A stretch of DNA of 64,000 bases, taken from assembly GCF_041296385.1 (NCBI RefSeq), contig NW_027184084.1, positions 1 through 64,000 of the forward strand, given 5' to 3'. Below the pieces are notes generated by a model. It was not told the DNA's origin and did not search any database. It saw nothing but the letters and a program-made list of their open reading frames with translations. This document shows, in pieces, positions 1-30,157 of the stretch; position 1 is the stretch's first letter, and each line of letters begins with the position of its first letter. Source of the DNA: Aphelocoma coerulescens (taxonomy: Eukaryota > Chordata > Aves > Passeriformes > Corvidae). A program made the position numbers and the translations under genes.

Positions 1-533
1 CCATCTTGGGCCTGGAAAAGCAAGTCCTGTGGAGACATGGCACCCCCGACAGGATCGAGTCAGACAACGGGACTCATTTTAAGAACAGCCTCATCAACAC
101 CTGGGCCAGAGAACACGGTATCGAATGGATATATCACATTCCTTATCATGCACCAGCTGCCGGAAAAGTTGAACGCTGCAATGGACTACTTAAAACCACC
201 CTAAAGGCACTTGGTGGGGGGACCTTCAAAAATTGGGAAGTGAACTTAGCGAAGGCTACCTGGATGGTCAATACCCGAGGGTCCATCAATCGAGCTGGTC
301 CTGCCGAGTCCGAACCCTTGCACACAGTGGATGGAGATAGAGTCCCTGTGGTACACCTGAGAGGTATTTTAGGAAAGACTGTTTGGATTAATCCCACCTC
401 AGGCAAAGGCAAACCCATCCGTGGGATTGTCTTTGCTCAAGGACCTGGTTGCACTTGGTGGGTAATGCAAAAAGATGGGGAAACCCGTTGTGTACCACAG
501 GGAGACCTAATCTTAGGTGAGAACGGTGTGTAG
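1..533 (+). CDS. pol: pol 3' end (integrase core and C-terminus), partial copy 0
   Basis: This is the last 177 codons of the pol frame, identical as read to the same stretch of the downstream copies. It starts within the integrase core. The second catalytic Asp (SDNGTHF) and the catalytic Glu (GKVERCNG) of the DDE triad are present, followed by the C-terminal DNA-binding region and a TAG stop at 531-533. The rest of this copy is to the left of the window, so the array has at least six pol-bearing units. Confidence 0.93.
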   Translation, partial: ILGLEKQVLWRHGTPDRIESDNGTHFKNSLINTWAREHGIEWIYHIPYHAPAAGKVERCNGLLKTTLKALGGGTFKNWEVNLAKATWMVNTRGSINRAGPAESEPLHTVDGDRVPVVHLRGILGKTVWINPTSGKGKPIRGIVFAQGPGCTWWVMQKDGETRCVPQGDLILGENGV

Positions 534-610
534 GGTTTCATTGTATATATATATATATATGTATGTATGTGTGTTTAGAGTTTAAGAAGGTATTGATTTG
601 GGATGCTGTA

Positions 611-669
611 GATGGTAATAGAATACGGGGTGGATAATGTCCTGGGTTGAGGTGTATTCTATTACCATC
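611..669. repeat. 16-bp perfect inverted repeat flanking the LTR start
   Basis: GATGGTAATAGAATAC (611-626) and GTATTCTATTACCATC (654-669) are exact reverse complements around a 27-base spacer that contains the proposed LTR start (638). It recurs in every unit at +5793. One arm lies in the internal region beside the polypurine-like stretch and the other in U3, so only a 3' LTR with its upstream internal sequence carries both arms. The role is unknown; it could form a hairpin in the genomic RNA 3' end or in DNA. Confidence 0.85.
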
Positions 670-721
670 CTCATGAGCTGTTGAAATCAGGTGGGGCAGT
701 GTTTCCTTGCCTCCTCCCCCC

Positions 722-840
722 AGACTATCTTTCTGTTAATGGCCCATCATTGTCCTGCCCATGACTCAGAGATAACTCCCTCCGGACTATCTTCTGTTAA
801 CGAGCCTAATCAACACTTGGCCTCATGACTCATTACCCCA
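722..840 (+). promoter_or_regulatory. U3 direct repeats with paired AP-1-like sites
   Basis: Two imperfect copies about 62-64 bp apart each run GACTATCTT..CTGTTAA..G and end with CATGACTCA. The TGACTCA cores at 762-768 and 826-832 match the AP-1 consensus. The pair sits about 60-125 bp upstream of the TATA box, the usual place for retroviral enhancer repeats. The arrangement is visible in all six LTRs. Binding is inferred from consensus only. Confidence 0.55.
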
Positions 841-886
841 TTGTGAGATGCTCCACCCAGAGGGAGGAACCAAGCATCCCATTGTG

Positions 887-894
887 GATATAAT
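887..894 (+). promoter_or_regulatory. LTR TATA box (copy 1)
   Basis: GATATAAT is the only TATA-like element well placed in the LTR, about 245 bp upstream of the ATTAAA polyadenylation signal. The same element occurs in each LTR at +5793 steps (+2 more in the last LTR). Confidence 0.6.
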
Positions 895-1195
895 CTGGGA
901 CTCTGAGCACCAAAGACACTGGCTCCACTGGATTTCCAGAGGACAGGAGCTACACAGCCACCGCTGGACTTTCTGAGGAAGAGCAGACCCCTTCTACTAC
1001 AGGATCACCACTTCAGAGGACTGCAGCCACCACTCCACCAGACTGCTACCACTACCCTGCCTAATAGGGACTCAGGTCGTATCTTGACTCTGTCAGTGTT
1101 TTCTTTTACTTTCTTTTCCTTTTCTTTAATTTCCATTAAATGGTTATTCTGACTTGGTGCCTCTCACTGGTTTGTTTTCAAACTAGTACATAATT

Positions 1196-1213
1196 TGGCG
1201 CCCAACGTGCGGC
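1196..1213 (+). other. Primer-binding site, tRNA-Lys type
   Basis: TGGCGCCCAACGTGCGG matches the 3' end of tRNA-Lys (the Lys1,2 class, TGGCGCCCAACGTGGGG) except for one base. It lies five bases after the LTR end. Copies recur at 6989, 12782, 18575 and 24368. It is absent after the last LTR, as expected for a 3' LTR. Confidence 0.8.
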
Positions 1214-1268: not shown

Positions 1269-3101
1269 ATGGTGCTCAGCTTGTCTGCATGGGTTCTGTA
1301 TCTTGCTCTCTATAGTTTTCCTCACATGGGGAACTACCTGCCTGTTGTGTTACTCCTGTTAAAACCAGGGACTGGTATGAGAATTGCTTTATTGGTTTAT
1401 TATGTCTATAGCATAATAACCTGCGAGGCGATGAATACCATTCGGAATATATACTCAATTTTGTTTGGCTGTCCTAGTCTGGGCTCCTATGTCTGGGATC
1501 TCTTCAACAATCGCACCCAGCCCCTGGTGGGAGGAGTAGAGAGTGGTTTCTTCCAGCCGTTCAGGCCAGGCACAGCAGTTTTTGAAAATATTGAGTTCCC
1601 TCTGGATGTTAAGGATGGTATAATCTTCTTGTCAGTTCTATTCTCTTTTTTCTCTATGGCCTGCATTGTGTACACCATGCTTAGAAACAGAACGCTACTT
1701 AGTGTGGTGCAACGTCTGCTTGAGGAGGAGGTAAAAAGGAGCAAAGCAGCAAATACCATGTCTACACAGACTGCCACACAGAAAGGAAGCAAAAGCAAAG
1801 CAACAGGGTCCATCTCTACGCAGACTGACACAGAGGAGAAAGAAACCAAATGCAAAACAACAGCATCCATCTCTACACAGGCTATCACAGAGGAGAAAGG
1901 AACCAAAAACAAAACAACAGCGTCCATGACTACGCAGACTGACTCAGAGGAGAAAGGAACCAAAAGCACTGTCAGCGTCCCCATGCAAACTGTCACTGAA
2001 CCAGAACAGCCCAAACCGATTGCAGTTGCCCCCGTGCAGAAGAAGAAATCAAAAAGCAAGTCAGTCCGCATAGTGACTGATGAGGATGCAGCAGGACCTT
2101 CACATCCAGCAGAAGAGGCAGAGCCAGAGATCATCACTCGGTCCCTATCCCTGGGTGAGCTGCGTGACCTGCGGAGGGAATTCACGTGCCAGACGAACGA
2201 GTCCGTCCTGACCTGGCTGCTCCGCTTCTGGGACGCTGCAGCCAATGACACCATTCTGGACGGAAGTGAGGCCAGGCAGCTGGGATCTCTGTCCCGGGAT
2301 GTGGTCATTGACCAGGGGATCGGGAGAACCCAAGAAACTCTCAGCCTCTGGCGGCGACTGCTTACAAGTGTCAGGGACAGGTACCTTTGTAAAGAAGACC
2401 TCCAGGTGCACCAAGGGAAATGGAGCACAATGGAACAAGGTATCCGGTGCCTGAGGGAATTGGCTGTGCTGGAGATCATTTTCTCAGAAGACGAGAGATT
2501 TCCTAAGAGCCCAGATGGTGTCCAGTGCACGTCACAGATGTGGTTGAGGTTCGCACGCCTTGGACCAGAGATATACTCCCGTTACCTGGCAACGCTGCAA
2601 TGGAGGGAAGGTGAGGACAGGGTGGGCGTCTTGGTGAACAAACTGAGGATTTACGAGGACACCGTCACAGCCCCGTTTCGCACCCATGTCTCATCAGTGG
2701 AAACAAGTCTTTCAGCTGAGCAAGTCCGGAGTTTGATTGAAGAAGGCCATCAGAAATTGAAAAAGGAACTTAAGGAAGAGATTTACCAGATCTCGCCAGA
2801 ACCAACAAGAGTCTCTGCCATTAGGAGCCGGCGTCCCCCAACCAGGGAGAGAGGATACACCCCACGAGGTAATCTCTGGTTTTTCCTTCAGGAACATGGA
2901 GAAGACATGAGTAAGTGGCATGGAAAACCCACCTCCTCCTTAGCAGCCAGGGTACGTGAACTAAAAAGAGGGACAACTACCACAAGAAGCGCATCTAGAG
3001 TCAACATTGCTCCGGTCTCTCGCACACAGAACTCCAGACGATACCAGAATGATAGCATGACTGATCCCCTTGAAGGGACCTCAGGAACATATTCACCGTA
3101 A
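1269..3101 (+). CDS. gag: Gag, copy 1, with predicted membrane-spanning N-terminus
   Basis: A 610-residue open frame starts at the first good ATG (ACCATGG context) 73 bp after the primer-binding site. Hydrophobic stretches lie at about residues 3-16, 22-31, 37-51 and 117-138, with an N-glycosylation sequon at N81. Then come four 18-19-residue repeats (166-240) with TQT cores, a basic patch (258-266), and a helical capsid-like part (about 290-500) similar to ERVL Gag. No CCHC zinc knuckle is present. The frame ends with TAA at 3099, followed in the same frame by a seven-codon mini-frame (ATG 3111 to TAG 3129) and then pol. Gag would form the particle. The membrane segments are a sequence-based prediction. 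Confidence 0.9.
   Translation: MVLSLSAWVLYLALYSFPHMGNYLPVVLLLLKPGTGMRIALLVYYVYSIITCEAMNTIRNIYSILFGCPSLGSYVWDLFNNRTQPLVGGVESGFFQPFRPGTAVFENIEFPLDVKDGIIFLSVLFSFFSMACIVYTMLRNRTLLSVVQRLLEEEVKRSKAANTMSTQTATQKGSKSKATGSISTQTDTEEKETKCKTTASISTQAITEEKGTKNKTTASMTTQTDSEEKGTKSTVSVPMQTVTEPEQPKPIAVAPVQKKKSKSKSVRIVTDEDAAGPSHPAEEAEPEIITRSLSLGELRDLRREFTCQTNESVLTWLLRFWDAAANDTILDGSEARQLGSLSRDVVIDQGIGRTQETLSLWRRLLTSVRDRYLCKEDLQVHQGKWSTMEQGIRCLRELAVLEIIFSEDERFPKSPDGVQCTSQMWLRFARLGPEIYSRYLATLQWREGEDRVGVLVNKLRIYEDTVTAPFRTHVSSVETSLSAEQVRSLIEEGHQKLKKELKEEIYQISPEPTRVSAIRSRRPPTRERGYTPRGNLWFFLQEHGEDMSKWHGKPTSSLAARVRELKRGTTTTRSASRVNIAPVSRTQNSRRYQNDSMTDPLEGTSGTYSP
1761..1985 (+). repeat. Four in-frame 54-57-bp repeats in gag encoding TQT motifs
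   Basis: Units lie at 1761-1814 (54 bp), 1815-1871, 1872-1928 and 1929-1985 (57 bp each). Each encodes a variant of S/T-T-Q-T-x-T/S-E-E-K followed by a K/T/S-rich tail. Three carry TQT and one TQA, and a partial fifth (MQTVTE) follows. The lengths keep the reading frame. The same block occurs in all five gag copies. Confidence 0.88.
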
Positions 3102-3131: not shown

Positions 3132-6100
3132 AGGGGCCCTGCCTCTAGCCAGGTAGAGGAAAGGGATAATCGGGTCCTTTGGACTGTGTGGGTCCGATGG
3201 CCTGGCACAGCTGACCCACAAAAATACACGGCTTTGGTTGACACAGGCGCTCAATGTACTCGGATGCCATCAAGGTATGTGGGAGCAGAACCCATTTCTA
3301 TTTGTGGGGTGACAGGAGGATCCCAGCAGCGGACTGTACTGGAAGCTGAAGTGAGTTTAACTGGGAACGAGTGGCAGAAACACCCCATCGTGACTGGCCC
3401 GGAGGCCCCGTGCATTCTCGGCATAGACAATCTCAGAAATGGATATTTCAAGGACCCAAAAGGACATCGTTGGGCTTTTGGGATAGCTGCCGTGGAGACA
3501 GAAGATATCAGACAACTGAGTACATTGCCTGGCCTCTCAGATGACCCGTCTGCCGTGGGACTGCTAAGAGTTGAAGAACAACAGGCACCAATCGCCACAG
3601 CAACCGTACACCGTCGGCAATACCGCACCGACAGAGACTCTGTGGTTCCCGTCCATGAGATGATTCGTAAACTGGAGAGCCAAGGGGTGGTCAGCAAGGC
3701 CCATTCACCTTTCAACAGCCCTATATGGCCAGTGCGTAAGTCCAACGGAGAATGGAGACTGACGGTGGATTACCGTGGCCTGAATGAAGTCACACCACCA
3801 TTGAGTGCTGCTGTGCCGGACATGTTGGAACTTCAGTACGAGCTGGAGTCCAAAGCAGCGAAGTGGTACTCCACTATTGACATTGCCAACGCCTTCTTCT
3901 CCATTCCTTTGGCAGCAGAATGCAGGCCCCAGTTTGCTTTCACTTGGAGGGGTGTGCAATACACCTGGAACCGACTGCCCCAGGGGTGGAAGCACAGTCC
4001 CACCATTTGCCACGGACTGATCCAGACTGCACTGGAAAAGGGTGAGGCCCCAGAACATCTGCAATACATCGACGACATCATCGTGTGGGGAAACACAGCA
4101 AAGGAAGTATTTGAGAAAGGAGAGAAAATCATCCAGATTCTCCTGGAAGCTGGCTTTGCCATCAAAAGGAGCCAAGTCAAGGGACCTGCCCAAGAGATCC
4201 AGTTCCTGGGAGTAAAGTGGCAAGATGGACGACGTCAGATTCCCACCGAGGTCGTCAACAAGATCACTGCGATGTCTCCACCGACCAGCAAGAAGGAAAC
4301 ACAAGCTTTCCTAGGCGCCATAGGTTTTTGGAGAATGCACATTCCTGAGTACAGCCAGATTGTGAGCCCTCTCTACCTGGTTACCCGAAAGAAGAACGAT
4401 TTCCACTGGGGCCCTGAACAGCAGCAAGCCTTCGCCCAGATCAAACAGGAAATCGCTCATGCGGTAGCCCTTGGCCCAGTCAGGACAGGACCAGAGGTGA
4501 AGAACGTGCTCTACTCTGCAGCCGGGAGCCATGGTCTGTCCTGGAGCCTCTGGCAGAAGGTGCCTGGTGAGACTCGTGGCCGACCACTGGGATTCTGGAG
4601 CCGAAGCTACAGAGGATCGGAAGCCAACTACACTCCCACAGAGAAGGAAATCTTGGCCGCCTATGAAGGAGTCCAAGCTGCCTCAGAGGTAATCGGCACA
4701 GAGGCACAACTCCTCCTGGCACCCCGACTACCAGTGCTGGGGTGGATGTTCAAGGGAAAGGTTCCTTCCAGGCATCACGCCACCGACACCACATGGAGCA
4801 AATGGATTGCTCTCATCACACAGCGTGCCCGTATTGGAAACCCGACTCGCCCTGGGATTCTGGAAATTATAACAAACTGGCCTGAAGGTGAGACTTTTGG
4901 ATTATCTTCTGAAGAAGAGGAAGAGCAAGTGACTCGTGCTGAGGAAGCCCCACCATATAATGAGCTACCGGAGACTGAAAGACATTATGCCCTCTTCACT
5001 GATGGTTCCTGCCGAATTGTAGGCACTAACAGGAAGTGGAAAGCTGCAGTATGGAGCCCCACACGGCAAGTTGCACAAGCTACCGAGGGACAAGGTGGAT
5101 CGAGTCAGGTTGCAGAGCTTAAAGCCGTCCAGCTGGCTTTGGATATTGCTGAACGAGAGAAGTGGCCGAGGCTCTATGTCTACACCGACTCGTGGATGGT
5201 AGCTAATGCTCTGTGGGGATGGCTGGTTCGCTGGAGAAAAGCCAACTGGCAGCGCAGAGGGAAACCCATCTGGGCCGCTGAGATTTGGCAGGACGTCGCC
5301 GCCCGAGTAGAGAAGCTGACCGTGAAGGTTCGACACGTGGATGCGCACGTACCCAAGAGTCGGGCTAATGAAGAACATCGCAACAACGAGCAGGTGGACG
5401 GAGCTGCCAAGTTGAAAGTATCACAGGTGGATCTGGACTGGCAGCACAAGGGAGGATTATTCCTAGCTCGTTGGGCCCATGATGCCTCTGGTCATCAGGG
5501 GAGAGATGCAACATACCAATGGGCCCGTGACCGAGGGGTGGGCCTTACCATGGACAGCATCTCACAGGTCATCCACAGCTGTGAGACCTGTGCTGCAATC
5601 AAACAGGCCAAGCGGGTGAAGCCTCTGTGGTACGGTGGACGATGGTCAAAGTACAGGTATGGGGAAGCCTGGCAAGTTGATTACATCACCCTTCCCCAAA
5701 CTCGCCAAGGCAAGCGCTACGTGTTGACCATGGTTGAAGCAACCACTGGATGGCTGGAGACCTACCCTGTGCCTCATGCTACAGCCCGGAACACCATCTT
5801 GGGCCTGGAAAAGCAAGTCCTGTGGAGACATGGCACCCCCGACAGGATCGAGTCAGACAACGGGACTCATTTTAAGAACAGCCTCATCAACACCTGGGCC
5901 AGAGAACACGGTATCGAATGGATATATCACATTCCTTATCATGCACCAGCTGCCGGAAAAGTTGAACGCTGCAATGGACTACTTAAAACCACCCTAAAGG
6001 CACTTGGTGGGGGGACCTTCAAAAATTGGGAAGTGAACTTAGCGAAGGCTACCTGGATGGTCAATACCCGAGGGTCCATCAATCGAGCTGGTCCTGCCGA

Positions 6101-6326
6101 GTCCGAACCCTTGCACACAGTGGATGGAGATAGAGTCCCTGTGGTACACCTGAGAGGTATTTTAGGAAAGACTGTTTGGATTAATCCCACCTCAGGCAAA
6201 GGCAAACCCATCCGTGGGATTGTCTTTGCTCAAGGACCTGGTTGCACTTGGTGGGTAATGCAAAAAGATGGGGAAACCCGTTGTGTACCACAGGGAGACC
6301 TAATCTTAGGTGAGAACGGTGTGTAG
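3132..6326 (+). CDS. pol: Pol polyprotein, copy 1 (protease-RT-RNase H-integrase)
   Basis: The frame is open from just after the TAG at 3129 to TAG at 6324. It is in the same frame as gag, separated by two stops, and no ATG precedes the protease active site. Numbering from the GTG at 3186 as residue 1: protease DTGA 19-22; RT with YIDD 294-297; RNase H D606, E644, D668, D738; integrase zinc ligands H765, H770, C799, C802 and catalytic D832, D891, E927. There is no dUTPase after the integrase and no env. Private variants of this copy versus the others are Q330, G757 and G786, and a silent C at 5575. Every catalytic residue I can identify is intact. Confidence 0.9.
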   Translation, partial: RGPASSQVEERDNRVLWTVWVRWPGTADPQKYTALVDTGAQCTRMPSRYVGAEPISICGVTGGSQQRTVLEAEVSLTGNEWQKHPIVTGPEAPCILGIDNLRNGYFKDPKGHRWAFGIAAVETEDIRQLSTLPGLSDDPSAVGLLRVEEQQAPIATATVHRRQYRTDRDSVVPVHEMIRKLESQGVVSKAHSPFNSPIWPVRKSNGEWRLTVDYRGLNEVTPPLSAAVPDMLELQYELESKAAKWYSTIDIANAFFSIPLAAECRPQFAFTWRGVQYTWNRLPQGWKHSPTICHGLIQTALEKGEAPEHLQYIDDIIVWGNTAKEVFEKGEKIIQILLEAGFAIKRSQVKGPAQEIQFLGVKWQDGRRQIPTEVVNKITAMSPPTSKKETQAFLGAIGFWRMHIPEYSQIVSPLYLVTRKKNDFHWGPEQQQAFAQIKQEIAHAVALGPVRTGPEVKNVLYSAAGSHGLSWSLWQKVPGETRGRPLGFWSRSYRGSEANYTPTEKEILAAYEGVQAASEVIGTEAQLLLAPRLPVLGWMFKGKVPSRHHATDTTWSKWIALITQRARIGNPTRPGILEIITNWPEGETFGLSSEEEEEQVTRAEEAPPYNELPETERHYALFTDGSCRIVGTNRKWKAAVWSPTRQVAQATEGQGGSSQVAELKAVQLALDIAEREKWPRLYVYTDSWMVANALWGWLVRWRKANWQRRGKPIWAAEIWQDVAARVEKLTVKVRHVDAHVPKSRANEEHRNNEQVDGAAKLKVSQVDLDWQHKGGLFLARWAHDASGHQGRDATYQWARDRGVGLTMDSISQVIHSCETCAAIKQAKRVKPLWYGGRWSKYRYGEAWQVDYITLPQTRQGKRYVLTMVEATTGWLETYPVPHATARNTILGLEKQVLWRHGTPDRIESDNGTHFKNSLINTWAREHGIEWIYHIPYHAPAAGKVERCNGLLKTTLKALGGGTFKNWEVNLAKATWMVNTRGSINRAGPAESEPLHTVDGDRVPVVHLRGILGKTVWINPTSGKGKPIRGIVFAQGPGCTWWVMQKDGETRCVPQGDLILGENGV

Positions 6327-6430: not shown

Positions 6431-6983
6431 TGTCCTGGGTTGAGGTGTATTCTATTACCATCCTCATGAGCTGTTGAAATCAGGTGGGGCAGTGTTTCCT
6501 TGCCTCCTCCCCCCAGACTATCTTTCTGTTAATGGCCCATCATTGTCCTGCCCATGACTCAGAGATAACTCCCTCCGGACTATCTTCTGTTAACGAGCCT
6601 AATCAACACTTGGCCTCATGACTCATTACCCCATTGTGAGATGCTCCACCCAGAGGGAGGAACCAAGCATCCCATTGTGGATATAATCTGGGACTCTGAG
6701 CACCAAAGACACTGGCTCCACTGGATTTCCAGAGGACAGGAGCTACACAGCCACCGCTGGACTTTCTGAGGAAGAGCAGACCCCTTCTACTACAGGATCA
6801 CCACTTCAGAGGACTGCAGCCACCACTCCACCAGACTGCTACCACTACCCTGCCTAATAGGGACTCAGGTCGTATCTTGACTCTGTCAGTGTTTTCTTTT
6901 ACTTTCTTTTCCTTTTCTTTAATTTCCATTAAATGGTTATTCTGACTTGGTGCCTCTCACTGGTTTGTTTTCAAACTAGTACA
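6431..6983 (+). repeat. Shared LTR between array copies 1 and 2
   Basis: This 553-bp LTR serves both as 3' LTR of copy 1 and 5' LTR of copy 2. It matches the first LTR throughout as read by eye. TATA box at 6682-6687, ATTAAA at 6928-6933, primer-binding site from 6989. No second LTR and no host sequence separate the two proviruses. Confidence 0.85.
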
Positions 6984-7061: not shown

Positions 7062-8894
7062 ATGGTGCTCAGCTTGTCTGCATGGGTTCTGTATCTTGCT
7101 CTCTATAGTTTTCCTCACATGGGGAACTACCTGCCTGTTGTGTTACTCCTGTTAAAACCAGGGACTGGTATGAGAATTGCTTTATTGGTTTATTATGTCT
7201 ATAGCATAATAACCTGCGAGGCGATGAATACCATTCGGAATATATACTCAATTTTGTTTGGCTGTCCTAGTCTGGGCTCCTATGTCTGGGATCTCTTCAA
7301 CAATCGCACCCAGCCCCTGGTGGGAGGAGTAGAGAGTGGTTTCTTCCAGCCGTTCAGGCCAGGCACAGCAGTTTTTGAAAATATTGAGTTCCCTCTGGAT
7401 GTTAAGGATGGTATAATCTTCTTGTCAGTTCTATTCTCTTTTTTCTCTATGGCCTGCATTGTGTACACCATGCTTAGAAACAGAACGCTACTTAGTGTGG
7501 TGCAACGTCTGCTTGAGGAGGAGGTAAAAAGGAGCAAAGCAGCAAATACCATGTCTACACAGACTGCCACACAGAAAGGAAGCAAAAGCAAAGCAACAGG
7601 GTCCATCTCTACGCAGACTGACACAGAGGAGAAAGAAACCAAATGCAAAACAACAGCATCCATCTCTACACAGGCTATCACAGAGGAGAAAGGAACCAAA
7701 AACAAAACAACAGCGTCCATGACTACGCAGACTGACTCAGAGGAGAAAGGAACCAAAAGCACTGTCAGCGTCCCCATGCAAACTGTCACTGAACCAGAAC
7801 AGCCCAAACCGATTGCAGTTGCCCCCGTGCAGAAGAAGAAATCAAAAAGCAAGTCAGTCCGCATAGTGACTGATGAGGATGCAGCAGGACCTTCACATCC
7901 AGCAGAAGAGGCAGAGCCAGAGATCATCACTCGGTCCCTATCCCTGGGTGAGCTGCGTGACCTGCGGAGGGAATTCACGTGCCAGACGAACGAGTCCGTC
8001 CTGACCTGGCTGCTCCGCTTCTGGGACGCTGCAGCCAATGACACCATTCTGGACGGAAGTGAGGCCAGGCAGCTGGGATCTCTGTCCCGGGATGTGGTCA
8101 TTGACCAGGGGATCGGGAGAACCCAAGAAACTCTCAGCCTCTGGCGGCGACTGCTTACAAGTGTCAGGGACAGGTACCTTTGTAAAGAAGACCTCCAGGT
8201 GCACCAAGGGAAATGGAGCACAATGGAACAAGGTATCCGGTGCCTGAGGGAATTGGCTGTGCTGGAGATCATTTTCTCAGAAGACGAGAGATTTCCTAAG
8301 AGCCCAGATGGTGTCCAGTGCACGTCACAGATGTGGTTGAGGTTCGCACGCCTTGGACCAGAGATATACTCCCGTTACCTGGCAACGCTGCAATGGAGGG
8401 AAGGTGAGGACAGGGTGGGCGTCTTGGTGAACAAACTGAGGATTTACGAGGACACCGTCACAGCCCCGTTTCGCACCCATGTCTCATCAGTGGAAACAAG
8501 TCTTTCAGCTGAGCAAGTCCGGAGTTTGATTGAAGAAGGCCATCAGAAATTGAAAAAGGAACTTAAGGAAGAGATTTACCAGATCTCGCCAGAACCAACA
8601 AGAGTCTCTGCCATTAGGAGCCGGCGTCCCCCAACCAGGGAGAGAGGATACACCCCACGAGGTAATCTCTGGTTTTTCCTTCAGGAACATGGAGAAGACA
8701 TGAGTAAGTGGCATGGAAAACCCACCTCCTCCTTAGCAGCCAGGGTACGTGAACTAAAAAGAGGGACAACTACCACAAGAAGCGCATCTAGAGTCAACAT
8801 TGCTCCGGTCTCTCGCACACAGAACTCCAGACGATACCAGAATGATAGCATGACTGATCCCCTTGAAGGGACCTCAGGAACATATTCACCGTAA
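7062..8894 (+). CDS. gag: Gag, copy 2
   Basis: An intact 610-codon frame with the same domain order as copy 1: four hydrophobic N-terminal segments, TQT repeats at 7554-7778, capsid-like region, no zinc knuckle. At the copy-distinguishing sites it carries the C, C, T, C type (equivalent to 2819, 3068, 3107 and 3109), as do copies 1 and 4. TAA stop at 8892, then the in-frame mini-frame ending at TAG 8922. Confidence 0.9.
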   Translation: MVLSLSAWVLYLALYSFPHMGNYLPVVLLLLKPGTGMRIALLVYYVYSIITCEAMNTIRNIYSILFGCPSLGSYVWDLFNNRTQPLVGGVESGFFQPFRPGTAVFENIEFPLDVKDGIIFLSVLFSFFSMACIVYTMLRNRTLLSVVQRLLEEEVKRSKAANTMSTQTATQKGSKSKATGSISTQTDTEEKETKCKTTASISTQAITEEKGTKNKTTASMTTQTDSEEKGTKSTVSVPMQTVTEPEQPKPIAVAPVQKKKSKSKSVRIVTDEDAAGPSHPAEEAEPEIITRSLSLGELRDLRREFTCQTNESVLTWLLRFWDAAANDTILDGSEARQLGSLSRDVVIDQGIGRTQETLSLWRRLLTSVRDRYLCKEDLQVHQGKWSTMEQGIRCLRELAVLEIIFSEDERFPKSPDGVQCTSQMWLRFARLGPEIYSRYLATLQWREGEDRVGVLVNKLRIYEDTVTAPFRTHVSSVETSLSAEQVRSLIEEGHQKLKKELKEEIYQISPEPTRVSAIRSRRPPTRERGYTPRGNLWFFLQEHGEDMSKWHGKPTSSLAARVRELKRGTTTTRSASRVNIAPVSRTQNSRRYQNDSMTDPLEGTSGTYSP

Positions 8895-18016: not shown

Positions 18017-18569
18017 TGTCCTGGGTTGAGGTGTATTCTATTACCATCCTCATGAGCTGTTGAAATCAGGTGGGGCAGTGTTTCCTTGCCTCCTCCCCCC
18101 AGACTATCTTTCTGTTAATGGCCCATCATTGTCCTGCCCATGACTCAGAGATAACTCCCTCCGGACTATCTTCTGTTAACGAGCCTAATCAACACTTGGC
18201 CTCATGACTCATTACCCCATTGTGAGATGCTCCACCCAGAGGGAGGAACCAAGCATCCCATTGTGGATATAATCTGGGACTCTGAGCACCAAAGACACTG
18301 GCTCCACTGGATTTCCAGAGGACAGGAGCTACACAGCCACCGCTGGACTTTCTGAGGAAGAGCAGACCCCTTCTACTACAGGATCACCACTTCAGAGGAC
18401 TGCAGCCACCACTCCACCAGACTGCTACCACTACCCTGCCTAATAGGGACTCAGGTCGTATCTTGACTCTGTCAGTGTTTTCTTTTACTTTCTTTTCCTT
18501 TTCTTTAATTTCCATTAAATGGTTATTCTGACTTGGTGCCTCTCACTGGTTTGTTTTCAAACTAGTACA
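18017..18569 (+). repeat. Shared LTR between array copies 3 and 4
   Basis: A 553-bp LTR in the same position relative to pol (105 bp after the pol stop) and gag as the others, with TATA, ATTAAA and a downstream primer-binding site at 18575. Confidence 0.85.
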
Positions 18570-20510: not shown

Positions 20511-23500
20511 AGGGGCCCTGCCTCTAGCCAGGTAGAGGAAAGGGATAATCGGGTCCTTTGGACTGTGTGGGTCCGATGGCCTGGCACAGCTGACCCACAA
20601 AAATACACGGCTTTGGTTGACACAGGCGCTCAATGTACTCGGATGCCATCAAGGTATGTGGGAGCAGAACCCATTTCTATTTGTGGGGTGACAGGAGGAT
20701 CCCAGCAGCGGACTGTACTGGAAGCTGAAGTGAGTTTAACTGGGAACGAGTGGCAGAAACACCCCATCGTGACTGGCCCGGAGGCCCCGTGCATTCTCGG
20801 CATAGACAATCTCAGAAATGGATATTTCAAGGACCCAAAAGGACATCGTTGGGCTTTTGGGATAGCTGCCGTGGAGACAGAAGATATCAGACAACTGAGT
20901 ACATTGCCTGGCCTCTCAGATGACCCGTCTGCCGTGGGACTGCTAAGAGTTGAAGAACAACAGGCACCAATCGCCACAGCAACCGTACACCGTCGGCAAT
21001 ACCGCACCGACAGAGACTCTGTGGTTCCCGTCCATGAGATGATTCGTAAACTGGAGAGCCAAGGGGTGGTCAGCAAGGCCCATTCACCTTTCAACAGCCC
21101 TATATGGCCAGTGCGTAAGTCCAACGGAGAATGGAGACTGACGGTGGATTACCGTGGCCTGAATGAAGTCACACCACCATTGAGTGCTGCTGTGCCGGAC
21201 ATGTTGGAACTTCAGTACGAGCTGGAGTCCAAAGCAGCGAAGTGGTACTCCACTATTGACATTGCCAACGCCTTCTTCTCCATTCCTTTGGCAGCAGAAT
21301 GCAGGCCCCAGTTTGCTTTCACTTGGAGGGGTGTGCAATACACCTGGAACCGACTGCCCCAGGGGTGGAAGCACAGTCCCACCATTTGCCATGGACTGAT
21401 CCAGACTGCACTGGAAAAGGGTGAGGCCCCAGAACATCTGCAATACATCGACGACATCATCGTGTGGGGAAACACAGCAAAGGAAGTATTTGAGAAAGGA
21501 GAGAAAATCATCCAGATTCTCCTGGAAGCTGGCTTTGCCATCAAAAGGAGCAAAGTCAAGGGACCTGCCCAAGAGATCCAGTTCCTGGGAGTAAAGTGGC
21601 AAGATGGACGACGTCAGATTCCCACCGAGGTCGTCAACAAGATCACTGCGATGTCTCCACCGACCAGCAAGAAGGAAACACAAGCTTTCCTAGGCGCCAT
21701 AGGTTTTTGGAGAATGCACATTCCTGAGTACAGCCAGATTGTGAGCCCTCTCTACCTGGTTACCCGAAAGAAGAACGATTTCCACTGGGGCCCTGAACAG
21801 CAGCAAGCCTTCGCCCAGATCAAACAGGAAATCGCTCATGCGGTAGCCCTTGGCCCAGTCAGGACAGGACCAGAGGTGAAGAACGTGCTCTACTCTGCAG
21901 CCGGGAGCCATGGTCTGTCCTGGAGCCTCTGGCAGAAGGTGCCTGGTGAGACTCGTGGCCGACCACTGGGATTCTGGAGCCGAAGCTACAGAGGATCGGA
22001 AGCCAACTACACTCCCACAGAGAAGGAAATCTTGGCCGCCTATGAAGGAGTCCAAGCTGCCTCAGAGGTAATCGGCACAGAGGCACAACTCCTCCTGGCA
22101 CCCCGACTACCAGTGCTGGGGTGGATGTTCAAGGGAAAGGTTCCTTCCAGGCATCACGCCACCGACACCACATGGAGCAAATGGATTGCTCTCATCACAC
22201 AGCGTGCCCGTATTGGAAACCCGACTCGCCCTGGGATTCTGGAAATTATAACAAACTGGCCTGAAGGTGAGACTTTTGGATTATCTTCTGAAGAAGAGGA
22301 AGAGCAAGTGACTCGTGCTGAGGAAGCCCCACCATATAATGAGCTACCGGAGACTGAAAGACATTATGCCCTCTTCACTGATGGTTCCTGCCGAATTGTA
22401 GGCACTAACAGGAAGTGGAAAGCTGCAGTATGGAGCCCCACACGGCAAGTTGCACAAGCTACCGAGGGACAAGGTGGATCGAGTCAGGTTGCAGAGCTTA
22501 AAGCCGTCCAGCTGGCTTTGGATATTGCTGAACGAGAGAAGTGGCCGAGGCTCTATGTCTACACCGACTCGTGGATGGTAGCTAATGCTCTGTGGGGATG
22601 GCTGGTTCGCTGGAGAAAAGCCAACTGGCAGCGCAGAGGGAAACCCATCTGGGCCGCTGAGATTTGGCAGGACGTCGCCGCCCGAGTAGAGAAGCTGACC
22701 GTGAAGGTTCGACACGTGGATGCGCACGTACCCAAGAGTCGGGCTAATGAAGAACATCGCAACAACGAGCAGGTGGACGGAGCTGCCAAGTTGAAAGTAT
22801 CACAGGTGGATCTGGACTGGCAGCACAAGGGAGAATTATTCCTAGCTCGTTGGGCCCATGATGCCTCTGGTCATCAGGGGAGAGATGCAACATACCAATG
22901 GGCCCGTGACCGAGGGGTGGACCTTACCATGGACAGCATCTCACAGGTCATCCACAGTTGTGAGACCTGTGCTGCAATCAAACAGGCCAAGCGGGTGAAG
23001 CCTCTGTGGTACGGTGGACGATGGTCAAAGTACAGGTATGGGGAAGCCTGGCAAGTTGATTACATCACCCTTCCCCAAACTCGCCAAGGCAAGCGCTACG
23101 TGTTGACCATGGTTGAAGCAACCACTGGATGGCTGGAGACCTACCCTGTGCCTCATGCTACAGCCCGGAACACCATCTTGGGCCTGGAAAAGCAAGTCCT
23201 GTGGAGACATGGCACCCCCGACAGGATCGAGTCAGACAACGGGACTCATTTTAAGAACAGCCTCATCAACACCTGGGCCAGAGAACACGGTATCGAATGG
23301 ATATATCACATTCCTTATCATGCACCAGCTGCCGGAAAAGTTGAACGCTGCAATGGACTACTTAAAACCACCCTAAAGGCACTTGGTGGGGGGACCTTCA
23401 AAAATTGGGAAGTGAACTTAGCGAAGGCTACCTGGATGGTCAATACCCGAGGGTCCATCAATCGAGCTGGTCCTGCCGAGTCCGAACCCTTGCACACAGT

Positions 23501-23705
23501 GGATGGAGATAGAGTCCCTGTGGTACACCTGAGAGGTATTTTAGGAAAGACTGTTTGGATTAATCCCACCTCAGGCAAAGGCAAACCCATCCGTGGGATT
23601 GTCTTTGCTCAAGGACCTGGTTGCACTTGGTGGGTAATGCAAAAAGATGGGGAAACCCGTTGTGTACCACAGGGAGACCTAATCTTAGGTGAGAACGGTG
23701 TGTAG
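20511..23705 (+). CDS. pol: Pol polyprotein, copy 4
   Basis: Open frame with all catalytic motifs. N82, K330, E757, D786 (numbered from the GTG at 20565); the silent T in the RT His276 codon is shared with copies 3 and 5. Combined with the copy 1/2-type gag end, the switch of variant type lies between the gag stop and the RT core of this unit. Confidence 0.9.
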   Translation, partial: RGPASSQVEERDNRVLWTVWVRWPGTADPQKYTALVDTGAQCTRMPSRYVGAEPISICGVTGGSQQRTVLEAEVSLTGNEWQKHPIVTGPEAPCILGIDNLRNGYFKDPKGHRWAFGIAAVETEDIRQLSTLPGLSDDPSAVGLLRVEEQQAPIATATVHRRQYRTDRDSVVPVHEMIRKLESQGVVSKAHSPFNSPIWPVRKSNGEWRLTVDYRGLNEVTPPLSAAVPDMLELQYELESKAAKWYSTIDIANAFFSIPLAAECRPQFAFTWRGVQYTWNRLPQGWKHSPTICHGLIQTALEKGEAPEHLQYIDDIIVWGNTAKEVFEKGEKIIQILLEAGFAIKRSKVKGPAQEIQFLGVKWQDGRRQIPTEVVNKITAMSPPTSKKETQAFLGAIGFWRMHIPEYSQIVSPLYLVTRKKNDFHWGPEQQQAFAQIKQEIAHAVALGPVRTGPEVKNVLYSAAGSHGLSWSLWQKVPGETRGRPLGFWSRSYRGSEANYTPTEKEILAAYEGVQAASEVIGTEAQLLLAPRLPVLGWMFKGKVPSRHHATDTTWSKWIALITQRARIGNPTRPGILEIITNWPEGETFGLSSEEEEEQVTRAEEAPPYNELPETERHYALFTDGSCRIVGTNRKWKAAVWSPTRQVAQATEGQGGSSQVAELKAVQLALDIAEREKWPRLYVYTDSWMVANALWGWLVRWRKANWQRRGKPIWAAEIWQDVAARVEKLTVKVRHVDAHVPKSRANEEHRNNEQVDGAAKLKVSQVDLDWQHKGELFLARWAHDASGHQGRDATYQWARDRGVDLTMDSISQVIHSCETCAAIKQAKRVKPLWYGGRWSKYRYGEAWQVDYITLPQTRQGKRYVLTMVEATTGWLETYPVPHATARNTILGLEKQVLWRHGTPDRIESDNGTHFKNSLINTWAREHGIEWIYHIPYHAPAAGKVERCNGLLKTTLKALGGGTFKNWEVNLAKATWMVNTRGSINRAGPAESEPLHTVDGDRVPVVHLRGILGKTVWINPTSGKGKPIRGIVFAQGPGCTWWVMQKDGETRCVPQGDLILGENGV

Positions 23706-23809: not shown

Positions 23810-24362
23810 TGTCCTGGGTTGAGGTGTATTCTATTACCATCCTCATGAGCTGTTGAAATCAGGTGGGGCAGTGTTTCCTTGCCTCCTCCCCCCAGACTAT
23901 CTTTCTGTTAATGGCCCATCATTGTCCTGCCCATGACTCAGAGATAACTCCCTCCGGACTATCTTCTGTTAACGAGCCTAATCAACACTTGGCCTCATGA
24001 CTCATTACCCCATTGTGAGATGCTCCACCCAGAGGGAGGAACCAAGCATCCCATTGTGGATATAATCTGGGACTCTGAGCACCAAAGACACTGGCTCCAC
24101 TGGATTTCCAGAGGACAGGAGCTACACAGCCACCGCTGGACTTTCTGAGGAAGAGCAGACCCCTTCTACTACAGGATCACCACTTCAGAGGACTGCAGCC
24201 ACCACTCCACCAGACTGCTACCACTACCCTGCCTAATAGGGACTCAGGTCGTATCTTGACTCTGTCAGTGTTTTCTTTTACTTTCTTTTCCTTTTCTTTA
24301 ATTTCCATTAAATGGTTATTCTGACTTGGTGCCTCTCACTGGTTTGTTTTCAAACTAGTACA
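23810..24362 (+). repeat. Shared LTR between array copies 4 and 5
   Basis: A 553-bp LTR with the same termini, U3 repeats, TATA and ATTAAA as the others. Primer-binding site from 24368. Confidence 0.85.
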
Positions 24363-24440: not shown

Positions 24441-26273
24441 ATGGTGCTCAGCTTGTCTGCATGGGTTCTGTATCTTGCTCTCTATAGTTTTCCTCACATG
24501 GGGAACTACCTGCCTGTTGTGTTACTCCTGTTAAAACCAGGGACTGGTATGAGAATTGCTTTATTGGTTTATTATGTCTATAGCATAATAACCTGCGAGG
24601 CGATGAATACCATTCGGAATATATACTCAATTTTGTTTGGCTGTCCTAGTCTGGGCTCCTATGTCTGGGATCTCTTCAACAATCGCACCCAGCCCCTGGT
24701 GGGAGGAGTAGAGAGTGGTTTCTTCCAGCCGTTCAGGCCAGGCACAGCAGTTTTTGAAAATATTGAGTTCCCTCTGGATGTTAAGGATGGTATAATCTTC
24801 TTGTCAGTTCTATTCTCTTTTTTCTCTATGGCCTGCATTGTGTACACCATGCTTAGAAACAGAACGCTACTTAGTGTGGTGCAACGTCTGCTTGAGGAGG
24901 AGGTAAAAAGGAGCAAAGCAGCAAATACCATGTCTACACAGACTGCCACACAGAAAGGAAGCAAAAGCAAAGCAACAGGGTCCATCTCTACGCAGACTGA
25001 CACAGAGGAGAAAGAAACCAAATGCAAAACAACAGCATCCATCTCTACACAGGCTATCACAGAGGAGAAAGGAACCAAAAACAAAACAACAGCGTCCATG
25101 ACTACGCAGACTGACTCAGAGGAGAAAGGAACCAAAAGCACTGTCAGCGTCCCCATGCAAACTGTCACTGAACCAGAACAGCCCAAACCGATTGCAGTTG
25201 CCCCCGTGCAGAAGAAGAAATCAAAAAGCAAGTCAGTCCGCATAGTGACTGATGAGGATGCAGCAGGACCTTCACATCCAGCAGAAGAGGCAGAGCCAGA
25301 GATCATCACTCGGTCCCTATCCCTGGGTGAGCTGCGTGACCTGCGGAGGGAATTCACGTGCCAGACGAACGAGTCCGTCCTGACCTGGCTGCTCCGCTTC
25401 TGGGACGCTGCAGCCAATGACACCATTCTGGACGGAAGTGAGGCCAGGCAGCTGGGATCTCTGTCCCGGGATGTGGTCATTGACCAGGGGATCGGGAGAA
25501 CCCAAGAAACTCTCAGCCTCTGGCGGCGACTGCTTACAAGTGTCAGGGACAGGTACCTTTGTAAAGAAGACCTCCAGGTGCACCAAGGGAAATGGAGCAC
25601 AATGGAACAAGGTATCCGGTGCCTGAGGGAATTGGCTGTGCTGGAGATCATTTTCTCAGAAGACGAGAGATTTCCTAAGAGCCCAGATGGTGTCCAGTGC
25701 ACGTCACAGATGTGGTTGAGGTTCGCACGCCTTGGACCAGAGATATACTCCCGTTACCTGGCAACGCTGCAATGGAGGGAAGGTGAGGACAGGGTGGGCG
25801 TCTTGGTGAACAAACTGAGGATTTACGAGGACACCGTCACAGCCCCGTTTCGCACCCATGTCTCATCAGTGGAAACAAGTCTTTCAGCTGAGCAAGTCCG
25901 GAGTTTGATTGAAGAAGGCCATCAGAAATTGAAAAAGGAACTTAAGGAAGAGATTTACCAGATCTCGCCAGAACCAACAAGAGTCTCTGCGATTAGGAGC
26001 CGGCGTCCCCCAACCAGGGAGAGAGGATACACCCCACGAGGTAATCTCTGGTTTTTCCTTCAGGAACATGGAGAAGACATGAGTAAGTGGCATGGAAAAC
26101 CCACCTCCTCCTTAGCAGCCAGGGTACGTGAACTAAAAAGAGGGACAACTACCACAAGAAGCGCATCTAGAGTCAACATTGCTCCGGTCTCTCGCACACA
26201 GAACTCCAGACGATACCAGAATGATAGCATGACTGATCCTCTTGAAGGGACCTCAGGAACATATTCACCGTAA
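24441..26273 (+). CDS. gag: Gag, copy 5 (last unit)
   Basis: An intact 610-codon frame. It shares the G, T, C, A variant set near its 3' end with copy 3, not with its neighbour copy 4. N-terminal hydrophobic segments and TQT repeats are unchanged. Confidence 0.9.
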   Translation: MVLSLSAWVLYLALYSFPHMGNYLPVVLLLLKPGTGMRIALLVYYVYSIITCEAMNTIRNIYSILFGCPSLGSYVWDLFNNRTQPLVGGVESGFFQPFRPGTAVFENIEFPLDVKDGIIFLSVLFSFFSMACIVYTMLRNRTLLSVVQRLLEEEVKRSKAANTMSTQTATQKGSKSKATGSISTQTDTEEKETKCKTTASISTQAITEEKGTKNKTTASMTTQTDSEEKGTKSTVSVPMQTVTEPEQPKPIAVAPVQKKKSKSKSVRIVTDEDAAGPSHPAEEAEPEIITRSLSLGELRDLRREFTCQTNESVLTWLLRFWDAAANDTILDGSEARQLGSLSRDVVIDQGIGRTQETLSLWRRLLTSVRDRYLCKEDLQVHQGKWSTMEQGIRCLRELAVLEIIFSEDERFPKSPDGVQCTSQMWLRFARLGPEIYSRYLATLQWREGEDRVGVLVNKLRIYEDTVTAPFRTHVSSVETSLSAEQVRSLIEEGHQKLKKELKEEIYQISPEPTRVSAIRSRRPPTRERGYTPRGNLWFFLQEHGEDMSKWHGKPTSSLAARVRELKRGTTTTRSASRVNIAPVSRTQNSRRYQNDSMTDPLEGTSGTYSP

Positions 26274-26303: not shown

Positions 26304-29300
26304 AGGGGCCCTGCCTCTAGCCAGGTAGAGGAAAGGGATAATCGGGTCCTTTGGACTGTGTGGGTCCGATGGCCTGGCACAGCTGACCCACAAAAATACA
26401 CGGCTTTGGTTGACACAGGCGCTCAATGTACTCGGATGCCATCAAGGTATGTGGGAGCAGAACCCATTTCTATTTGTGGGGTGACAGGAGGATCCCAGCA
26501 GCGGACTGTACTGGAAGCTGAAGTGAGTTTAACTGGGAACGAGTGGCAGAAACACCCCATCGTGACTGGCCCGGAGGCCCCGTGCATTCTCGGCATAGAC
26601 AATCTCAGAAATGGATATTTCAAGGACCCAAAAGGACATCGTTGGGCTTTTGGGATAGCTGCCGTGGAGACAGAAGATATCAGACAACTGAGTACATTGC
26701 CTGGCCTCTCAGATGACCCGTCTGCCGTGGGACTGCTAAGAGTTGAAGAACAACAGGCACCAATCGCCACAGCAACCGTACACCGTCGGCAATACCGCAC
26801 CGACAGAGACTCTGTGGTTCCCGTCCATGAGATGATTCGTAAACTGGAGAGCCAAGGGGTGGTCAGCAAGGCCCATTCACCTTTCAACAGCCCTATATGG
26901 CCAGTGCGTAAGTCCAACGGAGAATGGAGACTGACGGTGGATTACCGTGGCCTGAATGAAGTCACACCACCATTGAGTGCTGCTGTGCCGGACATGTTGG
27001 AACTTCAGTACGAGCTGGAGTCCAAAGCAGCGAAGTGGTACTCCACTATTGACATTGCCAACGCCTTCTTCTCCATTCCTTTGGCAGCAGAATGCAGGCC
27101 CCAGTTTGCTTTCACTTGGAGGGGTGTGCAATACACCTGGAACCGACTGCCCCAGGGGTGGAAGCACAGTCCCACCATTTGCCATGGACTGATCCAGACT
27201 GCACTGGAAAAGGGTGAGGCCCCAGAACATCTGCAATACATCGACGACATCATCGTGTGGGGAAACACAGCAAAGGAAGTATTTGAGAAAGGAGAGAAAA
27301 TCATCCAGATTCTCCTGGAAGCTGGCTTTGCCATCAAAAGGAGCAAAGTCAAGGGACCTGCCCAAGAGATCCAGTTCCTGGGAGTAAAGTGGCAAGATGG
27401 ACGACGTCAGATTCCCACCGAGGTCGTCAACAAGATCACTGCGATGTCTCCACCGACCAGCAAGAAGGAAACACAAGCTTTCCTAGGCGCCATAGGTTTT
27501 TGGAGAATGCACATTCCTGAGTACAGCCAGATTGTGAGCCCTCTCTACCTGGTTACCCGAAAGAAGAACGATTTCCACTGGGGCCCTGAACAGCAGCAAG
27601 CCTTCGCCCAGATCAAACAGGAAATCGCTCATGCGGTAGCCCTTGGCCCAGTCAGGACAGGACCAGAGGTGAAGAACGTGCTCTACTCTGCAGCCGGGAG
27701 CCATGGTCTGTCCTGGAGCCTCTGGCAGAAGGTGCCTGGTGAGACTCGTGGCCGACCACTGGGATTCTGGAGCCGAAGCTACAGAGGATCGGAAGCCAAC
27801 TACACTCCCACAGAGAAGGAAATCTTGGCCGCCTATGAAGGAGTCCAAGCTGCCTCAGAGGTAATCGGCACAGAGGCACAACTCCTCCTGGCACCCCGAC
27901 TACCAGTGCTGGGGTGGATGTTCAAGGGAAAGGTTCCTTCCAGGCATCACGCCACCGACACCACATGGAGCAAATGGATTGCTCTCATCACACAGCGTGC
28001 CCGTATTGGAAACCCGACTCGCCCTGGGATTCTGGAAATTATAACAAACTGGCCTGAAGGTGAGACTTTTGGATTATCTTCTGAAGAAGAGGAAGAGCAA
28101 GTGACTCGTGCTGAGGAAGCCCCACCATATAATGAGCTACCGGAGACTGAAAGACATTATGCCCTCTTCACTGATGGTTCCTGCCGAATTGTAGGCACTA
28201 ACAGGAAGTGGAAAGCTGCAGTATGGAGCCCCACACGGCAAGTTGCACAAGCTACCGAGGGACAAGGTGGATCGAGTCAGGTTGCAGAGCTTAAAGCCGT
28301 CCAGCTGGCTTTGGATATTGCTGAACGAGAGAAGTGGCCGAGGCTCTATGTCTACACCGACTCGTGGATGGTAGCTAATGCTCTGTGGGGATGGCTGGTT
28401 CGCTGGAGAAAAGCCAACTGGCAGCGCAGAGGGAAACCCATCTGGGCCGCTGAGATTTGGCAGGACGTCGCCGCCCGAGTAGAGAAGCTGACCGTGAAGG
28501 TTCGACACGTGGATGCGCACGTACCCAAGAGTCGGGCTAATGAAGAACATCGCAACAACGAGCAGGTGGACGGAGCTGCCAAGTTGAAAGTATCACAGGT
28601 GGATCTGGACTGGCAGCACAAGGGAGAATTATTCCTAGCTCGTTGGGCCCATGATGCCTCTGGTCATCAGGGGAGAGATGCAACATACCAATGGGCCCGT
28701 GACCGAGGGGTGGACCTTACCATGGACAGCATCTCACAGGTCATCCACAGTTGTGAGACCTGTGCTGCAATCAAACAGGCCAAGCGGGTGAAGCCTCTGT
28801 GGTACGGTGGACGATGGTCAAAGTACAGGTATGGGGAAGCCTGGCAAGTTGATTACATCACCCTTCCCCAAACTCGCCAAGGCAAGCGCTACGTGTTGAC
28901 CATGGTTGAAGCAACCACTGGATGGCTGGAGACCTACCCTGTGCCTCATGCTACAGCCCGGAACACCATCTTGGGCCTGGAAAAGCAAGTCCTGTGGAGA
29001 CATGGCACCCCCGACAGGATCGAGTCAGACAACGGGACTCATTTTAAGAACAGCCTCATCAACACCTGGGCCAGAGAACACGGTATCGAATGGATATATC
29101 ACATTCCTTATCATGCACCAGCTGCCGGAAAAGTTGAACGCTGCAATGGACTACTTAAAACCACCCTAAAGGCACTTGGTGGGGGGACCTTCAAAAATTG
29201 GGAAGTGAACTTAGCGAAGGCTACCTGGATGGTCAATACCCGAGGGTCCATCAATCGAGCTGGTCCTGCCGAGTCCGAACCCTTGCACACAGTGGATGGA

Positions 29301-29498
29301 GATAGAGTCCCTGTGGTACACCTGAGAGGTATTTTAGGAAAGACTGTTTGGATTAATCCCACCTCAGGCAAAGGCAAACCCATCCGTGGGATTGTCTTTG
29401 CTCAAGGACCTGGTTGCACTTGGTGGGTAATGCAAAAAGATGGGGAAACCCGTTGTGTACCACAGGGAGACCTAATCTTAGGTGAGAACGGTGTGTAG
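26304..29498 (+). CDS. pol: Pol polyprotein, copy 5 (last unit)
   Basis: Open frame with all catalytic motifs, N82, K330, E757 and D786 (numbered from the GTG at 26358), and the silent T shared with copies 3 and 4. The TA dinucleotide run just after its stop is 19 bases long rather than 17, the only length change I found between units. Confidence 0.9.
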   Translation, partial: RGPASSQVEERDNRVLWTVWVRWPGTADPQKYTALVDTGAQCTRMPSRYVGAEPISICGVTGGSQQRTVLEAEVSLTGNEWQKHPIVTGPEAPCILGIDNLRNGYFKDPKGHRWAFGIAAVETEDIRQLSTLPGLSDDPSAVGLLRVEEQQAPIATATVHRRQYRTDRDSVVPVHEMIRKLESQGVVSKAHSPFNSPIWPVRKSNGEWRLTVDYRGLNEVTPPLSAAVPDMLELQYELESKAAKWYSTIDIANAFFSIPLAAECRPQFAFTWRGVQYTWNRLPQGWKHSPTICHGLIQTALEKGEAPEHLQYIDDIIVWGNTAKEVFEKGEKIIQILLEAGFAIKRSKVKGPAQEIQFLGVKWQDGRRQIPTEVVNKITAMSPPTSKKETQAFLGAIGFWRMHIPEYSQIVSPLYLVTRKKNDFHWGPEQQQAFAQIKQEIAHAVALGPVRTGPEVKNVLYSAAGSHGLSWSLWQKVPGETRGRPLGFWSRSYRGSEANYTPTEKEILAAYEGVQAASEVIGTEAQLLLAPRLPVLGWMFKGKVPSRHHATDTTWSKWIALITQRARIGNPTRPGILEIITNWPEGETFGLSSEEEEEQVTRAEEAPPYNELPETERHYALFTDGSCRIVGTNRKWKAAVWSPTRQVAQATEGQGGSSQVAELKAVQLALDIAEREKWPRLYVYTDSWMVANALWGWLVRWRKANWQRRGKPIWAAEIWQDVAARVEKLTVKVRHVDAHVPKSRANEEHRNNEQVDGAAKLKVSQVDLDWQHKGELFLARWAHDASGHQGRDATYQWARDRGVDLTMDSISQVIHSCETCAAIKQAKRVKPLWYGGRWSKYRYGEAWQVDYITLPQTRQGKRYVLTMVEATTGWLETYPVPHATARNTILGLEKQVLWRHGTPDRIESDNGTHFKNSLINTWAREHGIEWIYHIPYHAPAAGKVERCNGLLKTTLKALGGGTFKNWEVNLAKATWMVNTRGSINRAGPAESEPLHTVDGDRVPVVHLRGILGKTVWINPTSGKGKPIRGIVFAQGPGCTWWVMQKDGETRCVPQGDLILGENGV

Positions 29499-29604
29499 GG
29501 TTTCATTGTATATATATATATATATATGTATGTATGTGTGTTTAGAGTTTAAGAAGGTATTGATTTGGGATGCTGTAGATGGTAATAGAATACGGGGTGG
29601 ATAA

Positions 29605-30157
29605 TGTCCTGGGTTGAGGTGTATTCTATTACCATCCTCATGAGCTGTTGAAATCAGGTGGGGCAGTGTTTCCTTGCCTCCTCCCCCCAGACTATCTTTC
29701 TGTTAATGGCCCATCATTGTCCTGCCCATGACTCAGAGATAACTCCCTCCGGACTATCTTCTGTTAACGAGCCTAATCAACACTTGGCCTCATGACTCAT
29801 TACCCCATTGTGAGATGCTCCACCCAGAGGGAGGAACCAAGCATCCCATTGTGGATATAATCTGGGACTCTGAGCACCAAAGACACTGGCTCCACTGGAT
29901 TTCCAGAGGACAGGAGCTACACAGCCACCGCTGGACTTTCTGAGGAAGAGCAGACCCCTTCTACTACAGGATCACCACTTCAGAGGACTGCAGCCACCAC
30001 TCCACCAGACTGCTACCACTACCCTGCCTAATAGGGACTCAGGTCGTATCTTGACTCTGTCAGTGTTTTCTTTTACTTTCTTTTCCTTTTCTTTAATTTC
30101 CATTAAATGGTTATTCTGACTTGGTGCCTCTCACTGGTTTGTTTTCAAACTAGTACA
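29605..30157 (+). repeat. Terminal 3' LTR of the array
   Basis: The last LTR ends at ACTAGTACA (30157) and is followed by GAATCTCTC of provirus B rather than by a primer-binding site. This fixes the LTR 3' end. Pol-to-LTR distance is 107 bp instead of 105 because of one extra TA dinucleotide. Confidence 0.88.

Follow-up and report, generated by a model that had tools for sequence, protein, structure and literature searches.

Tandem full-length or LTR-sharing proviruses and retrotransposons have been described in vertebrates and plants. The human HERV-K(HML-2) loci at 7p22.1 and 6q14.1 are tandem proviruses with three LTRs around two internal regions, and the account in PMC11807958 that concerns them reports shared LTRs, coding capacity and a structure that is polymorphic among people. 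In the chicken, the centromere core of chromosome 32 contains three tandem full-length Kronos_I endogenous retroviruses (ERVs), according to the passage on that region in PMC9974502. Tandems of LTR elements in kangaroo centromeres share internal LTRs, and LTR exchange between sister chromatids or homologues has been proposed for them (as cited in PMC11899658). Rice LTR-retrotransposon tandems, in the part of PMC11899658 devoted to them, display shared LTRs, a polymorphic structure and a single insertion bearing a 5-nt duplication. The Cassandra arrays of plants are non-coding and share LTRs over at least 12 copies, as summarized in PMC7215508. Among songbird elements, TguERVL2_I belongs to the ERVL superfamily, has a full length of about 6.4 kb and was recently active in songbirds; the section of PMC6523648 that treats it reports mostly solo LTRs and describes no tandem arrays.

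Here we describe a tandem array of an ERVL-like provirus in the Florida Scrub-Jay (Aphelocoma coerulescens). The analysis started from the first 64,000 nucleotides of contig NW_027184084.1 (C38:1-64000; hereafter the window) and extended to 1,330,612,911 bases in 660 contigs. The element resembles TguERVL2_I, by description and not by DNA, in carrying two long ORFs in one frame with the domains AP-RT-RH-INT (PMC6523648, in the section cited above), and differs in its tandem arrangement. Like the HERV-K(HML-2) tandems, which comprise two units, are autosomal and belong to HERV-K rather than ERVL, the array has LTRs shared between units and coding capacity. Kronos_I likewise forms tandem full-length ERVs in a bird, but with three units and in a centromeric place. 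The kangaroo tandems have the same internal LTR sharing but are centromeric, and the rice and Cassandra examples come from plants. The preliminary description had called amplification of intact units unusual. That view needs tempering, given the two- to three-unit tandems in print (human HERV-K, chicken Kronos_I) and the longer ones in plants. No report of a bird W array of this kind was found in the open-licence literature, surveyed mainly through ranked titles, abstracts and passages. Shared-LTR tandems are known; what is new here is the size and copy number of the array, its inferred location on the W and reading frames that are mostly open.

Repeat unit and coding content

Self-comparison of the window is dominated by offsets of 5793, 11586, 17379 and 23172, and positions 1-30157 consist of five complete 5793-bp units and one partial unit joined head to tail (Table 1). 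All six LTR copies are identical, with exactly one LTR per internal junction. An ERVL-like head-to-tail array with shared LTRs, ending at 30157, had been proposed in the preliminary description, and the offsets and single-LTR junctions bear this out. The period indeed equals a one-LTR circle. It is exactly 5793 bp across the five units, as had been claimed, but the last LTR interval is 5795 bp because of one extra TA in the microsatellite upstream of LTR 6. The earlier count of at least six proviruses is a large underestimate, since C38 starts inside the array and the window therefore begins mid-array. Any two of the five period-long units are separated by 0 to 9 differences, which fall on 10 sites in total; units 3 and 5 are identical.

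Each LTR measures 553 bp (TGTCC...TACA), has TG...CA ends and is associated with 5-bp target duplications outside the window array, namely ATTGT at a copy on C37 and AGAGC at a second array on C38. The LTR start at 638 was set from copies outside the window array. A start at 607 (TGTA) was ruled out, as the outside copies begin with TGTCC. The C37 copy lies on a W-sized contig and has ATTGT on both sides, which confirms the LTR ends. Junctions consist of one LTR in the same orientation and show no additional target duplications, both in the window and, by piecewise comparison, on C34. Nested independent insertions were rejected on the grounds that the window junctions are identical and free of extra target duplications. 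The end of the candidate polypurine tract and the start of the LTR lie between the arms of a perfect 16-bp inverted repeat (611-626 / 654-669) that recurs in each unit, which places both in a predicted hairpin loop. RNA folding at this LTR border was not clearly above shuffled sequences (z -1.26; 23 of 200 shuffles fold at least as well).

Table 1. Features of the array and its 3' flank in the window.
Feature	Positions	Strand	Length
Upstream unit tail (integrase end and 3' untranslated part), cut by contig start	1..637	+	
Polypurine tract candidate directly before LTR; partly in inverted-repeat loop	620..637	+	
LTR 1, common to neighbouring units	638..1190	+	553 bp
Primer binding site candidate, unit 1; recurs in every unit	1196..1213	+	
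gag unit 1; recurs at +5793 in units 2-5	1269..3101	+	610 aa
57-bp minisatellite in gag, 3.3 copies, in each of five window units	1780..1968	+	
pol unit 1 (protease, RT, RNase H, integrase); recurs in units 2-5	3132..6326	+	
LTR 2	6431..6983	+	
gag unit 2	7062..8894	+	
pol unit 2	8925..12119	+	
LTR 3	12224..12776	+	
gag unit 3	12855..14687	+	
pol unit 3	14718..17912	+	
LTR 4	18017..18569	+	
gag unit 4	18648..20480	+	
pol unit 4	20511..23705	+	
LTR 5	23810..24362	+	
gag unit 5	24441..26273	+	
pol unit 5	26304..29498	+	
LTR 6, array 3' end, followed by GAATC	29605..30157	+	
Older ERVK-like provirus in 3' flank (RT, protease, Gag_p24 pieces from 31014 on)	30158..35251	-	

Every one of the five window units keeps an open gag frame (610 codons from the ATG at 1269) and an open pol frame (1064 codons from stop to stop). 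Both lie in the same reading frame, separated at 3099-3131 by two in-frame stops that are ten codons apart. Four amino-acid differences, all in pol, distinguish the five units. Inspection by eye of the unit-1 translation reveals the DTG motif of protease, the YIDD motif of RT, and the HHCC and DDE motifs of integrase. The earlier statement that five open units keep complete catalytic motifs is thus upheld for the open frames in all five and, by eye, for the motifs of unit 1. Among the pol pieces, Pfam matches to RT, RNase H and the integrase core are clear, and the protease match is weak (E 0.0018, below the Pfam cut-off). The element lacks env, pol being followed by an LTR after about 100 bases, and no dUTPase was present among the Pfam matches of six unit pieces at E up to 0.01. 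A dUTPase is a feature of mammalian ERVL, a group named after its leucine tRNA primer. Here the primer site reads as what we take to be tRNA-Lys-like rather than Leu, hence the label 'ERVL-like' class III. Compared with solved structures, the integrase matches foamy virus best (2.1e-14; next group 8e-07), and the best RT matches are chains that are presumably of murine-leukaemia type and foamy. By sequence comparison, the element is best classed as an env-less ERVL-like (class III) endogenous retrovirus whose RT and integrase appear nearer to spumavirus or gammaretrovirus than to betaretrovirus.

Relatives of gag number 155, of which 120 are listed, and the named sources are birds save one filed under Klebsiella. 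Among the matches listed, a blue jay sequence is closest by identity (96% across 61% of gag). The exception, P0100, is a bird gag relative filed under Klebsiella pneumoniae on a 1.9-kb contig, and this filing is probably contamination. The RNase H-integrase region has 760 relatives, with the 120 listed coming from many bird orders. The start of gag (window 1269-1700) encodes hydrophobic, membrane-like segments, and the manakin relative P0006 has similar ones. A C-terminal stretch of gag may adopt a weak capsid-like fold, as predicted by a low-confidence structure model. Foldseek returned no match for gag at E up to 0.001; in a second look the capsid-like stretch alone stands out, and the lack of other folds carries little weight. 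One integrase-region query had no match among viral contigs, the LTR query had none among phage records, and the window yielded nothing from Rfam at gathering scores or from a tRNA scan.

Array extent and chromosomal setting

Beyond the window, the array occupies the minus strand of C34 from base 1 to 265003 and runs to the contig end. Its 47 anchors are spaced 5791-5796 bp apart, except at the noisy contig end and in one split unit. With the two noisy end units removed and the split unit counted once, C34 contributes 44 units; piecewise comparison covered all but about 2.2 kb within the array. The split unit is interrupted by about 1.36 kb of inserted sequence (C34:40780-42142) that has TG...CA ends and the 5-bp duplication GAGCA. 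On these features it looks like a solo LTR, from a family not encountered in the window. Across the whole genome, the exact 42-base LTR/PBS junction occurs 57 times, with 45 occurrences on C34, five in the window, five in the second C38 array, one on C37 and one on C39. The only two outside arrays are at C39:33458309 and C37:3127601. C39, a 72-Mb contig, may be the Z chromosome; no 3' end was seen for its copy at the position expected of a full-length element.

The end of C34 matches the first units of the window (C34 1-8661 against window 638-9200), so that the two contigs read as overlapping sides of an array. Out of 52 rows compared at shared sites, the C34 end unit 8661 is the sole match to the haplotype of window unit 1, and the partial C34 unit beyond it agrees with window unit 2 at covered sites. 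The private differences of these two end units (13 and 62) lie within the final ~3.3 kb of C34. Most are single-base insertions, resembling the end of a raw read. Differences at 1760-1965 (window coordinates) in this comparison were dropped as out-of-register minisatellite alignments. Most likely, C34 and C38 together carry one array of 44 + 5 = 49 units and about 285.9 kb, a copy number that rests on the assembly of HiFi reads averaging 14.55 kb, or about 2.5 units. Two separate arrays are a possible alternative to this single giant array.

The outer flanks of the giant array differ. On C34 the 5' flank is CCCCC, beside the env (Pfam TLV_coat) of another ERV; on C38 the 3' flank is GAATC, beside a minus-strand ERVK. 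A matched target duplication was predicted around the giant array and was not found when the C34 and C38 outer flanks were compared. Given this mismatch, the giant array does not represent a single simple insertion. It could be a fusion of two insertions, which would explain the unmatched flanks. On the C38 side, the array would interrupt the pol of the flanking ERVK-like provirus, and the frame adjoining the array (30168-30617) has no Pfam match. The window flank (30158-64000) contains other ERVs. ERVK-like fragments lie at 31-35, 43.9-51.8 and 61-64 kb, and the minus strand carries a degraded element of class I/III-like type between 53.4 and 59.9 kb.

The second array lies on the minus strand of C38 at ~349.6-379.4 kb. 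It is organized head to tail, with five exact junctions ~5847 bp apart that span C38:355403-378790, and AGAGC borders its outer LTRs on both sides as one 5-bp target-site duplication. Its LTR pieces (163 and 224 bases) are ~3% different from the LTR of the giant array, which points to a separate insertion that also turned tandem. The contig sizes fit W scaffolds of the Florida Scrub-Jay assembly, and from these sizes the array contigs appear to belong to the female-only W chromosome. The fit has one discrepancy, as the assembly paper has five additional W scaffolds and four contigs (C35-C38) already sum to the stated 20.5 Mb.

Unit variation and competing origins

Variation was analyzed in 47 of the 49 units, leaving out C34 units 2818 and 8661 (noisy ends), 43424/44791 (interrupted) and 247623 (incomplete). 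Unit distance counts kept units, and indels are scored as sites, with a 2-base deletion counting as two. There are 61 variable sites, 41 shared and 20 private, and in the four-gamete test all four combinations occur at 317 of the 741 informative pairs of sites. Pairwise difference averages 11.05 with a maximum of 35, and no difference separates the members of 12 of the 1081 pairs. The mean falls to 6.35 between adjacent units, a value reached in none of 5000 permutations, and difference grows with unit distance (Mantel r 0.419; again 0/5000). The adjacent C34 units 195466 and 201257 share LTR variants, in the same order, with 253418 and 259209 and with no other unit; this two-unit block recurs at exactly 57,952 bp, ten units away. 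At pol position 100, window units 1, 3, 4 and 5 share a residue and unit 2 differs, the unit-2 state being present in 36 of 37 scorable relatives. Divergent units occur at one array edge, the 5' one only. Likeness of neighbours, variants common to units and a divergent edge are, at the level of the assembled units, what is expected of a satellite or macrosatellite under concerted evolution. Together, the shared mosaic sites, the decay with distance and the block repeat argue for repeated unequal exchange and conversion rather than a one-step identical concatemer.

Both gag and pol are open in 42 of 47 units by piecewise comparison, in which no frame-changing indels were seen in either gene. 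A stop at pol site 4386 is present in 5/47 units, and the gag stop is lost in nine (ten with the split-unit half), adding ten codons before the next stop. Among the variable coding sites, 24 of 42 are nonsynonymous, below the neutral expectation (P 0.004-0.03 by transition weighting), and some variants may therefore predate the array and derive from several active source copies. The low divergence may reflect recent growth or strong homogenization.

We regard it as likely that one insertion was amplified in place, by unequal exchange between LTRs and units, into a W array of ~49 units. An ERVL-like provirus would have inserted in the W chromosome, and misaligned exchange between its LTRs would have been the first step. 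Later misaligned exchange between whole units would have produced a satellite-like array in place, and further exchange and gene conversion would have spread variants among units. Over most of its length the W lacks a partner to recombine with, and sister chromatids were therefore probably the exchange partners. The preliminary description had left unequal crossing-over and concatemer integration open; the unit haplotypes and the single 5-bp duplication around the second array favour amplification in place.

The period would also suit an array in which one-LTR circles or cDNA were inserted repeatedly, by homology, into an LTR already in place, with units from different sources. Mosaic haplotypes and the nonsynonymous deficit fit such multiple sources, and yeast Ty5 tandems offer a precedent (as cited in PMC11899658). 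This origin is nonetheless unlikely, as the decay of similarity with distance and the 57,952-bp block repeat both require exchange among units of the array, and with 2 of 57 exact junctions outside arrays, source copies with exact junctions are scarce. Integration of a ready-made concatemer in one step has still less in its favour and is very improbable for the giant array, where it predicts unit-private mutations: two-thirds of the variable sites (41/61) are instead shared, and the 317 incompatible site pairs do not fit one tree. The second array, known here from its junctions, flanks and LTR pieces, could have arisen in this way, having one target-site duplication around five junctions, and insertion of tandem structures made during retrotransposition is discussed in the relevant part of PMC11899658.

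An assembly artefact, in which separated near-identical proviruses were strung together or the copy number inflated, would be encouraged by reads averaging under three units, by identical neighbours among some C34 units, by the raw-read-like single-base insertions in the last 3.3 kb of C34 and by the unmatched outer flanks of the joined array. Against it stand unit-specific SNPs, the single-unit insert that carries a 5-bp duplication of its own, the matched flanks of the second array and the scarcity of exact junctions elsewhere. We give this explanation a very small chance; the SNPs, nested insert and second array reduce the concern, but do not remove it, for an array known from assembled sequence. 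Amplification in place by unequal exchange remains the preferred account.

Implications for the W chromosome and its retroviruses

The array points to host DNA recombination as a means by which an intact provirus can become satellite-like. Two W scaffold ends that stand unjoined in the assembly seem to meet within the array and could be joined there, and arrays should be kept apart from insertions when full-length W proviruses are counted. The locus bears on whether ERV arrays seed centromeres. A far-reaching and rather improbable reading is that the ~286-kb array is the kinetochore-bearing core of the W centromere, multiplied and homogenized by sister-chromatid exchange, with dozens of open gag-pol copies forming a female-limited reservoir of retroviral proteins. 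If true, the array would be a functional chromosome part of the songbird W. The avian W has been proposed as a refuge of potentially active ERVs, in the portion of PMC8310711 that addresses this, and the array bears on that proposal. It bears as well on how a chromosome without a partner recombines, and it marks a route from intact retrovirus to macrosatellite, caught while most of the examined units are still open in gag and pol.
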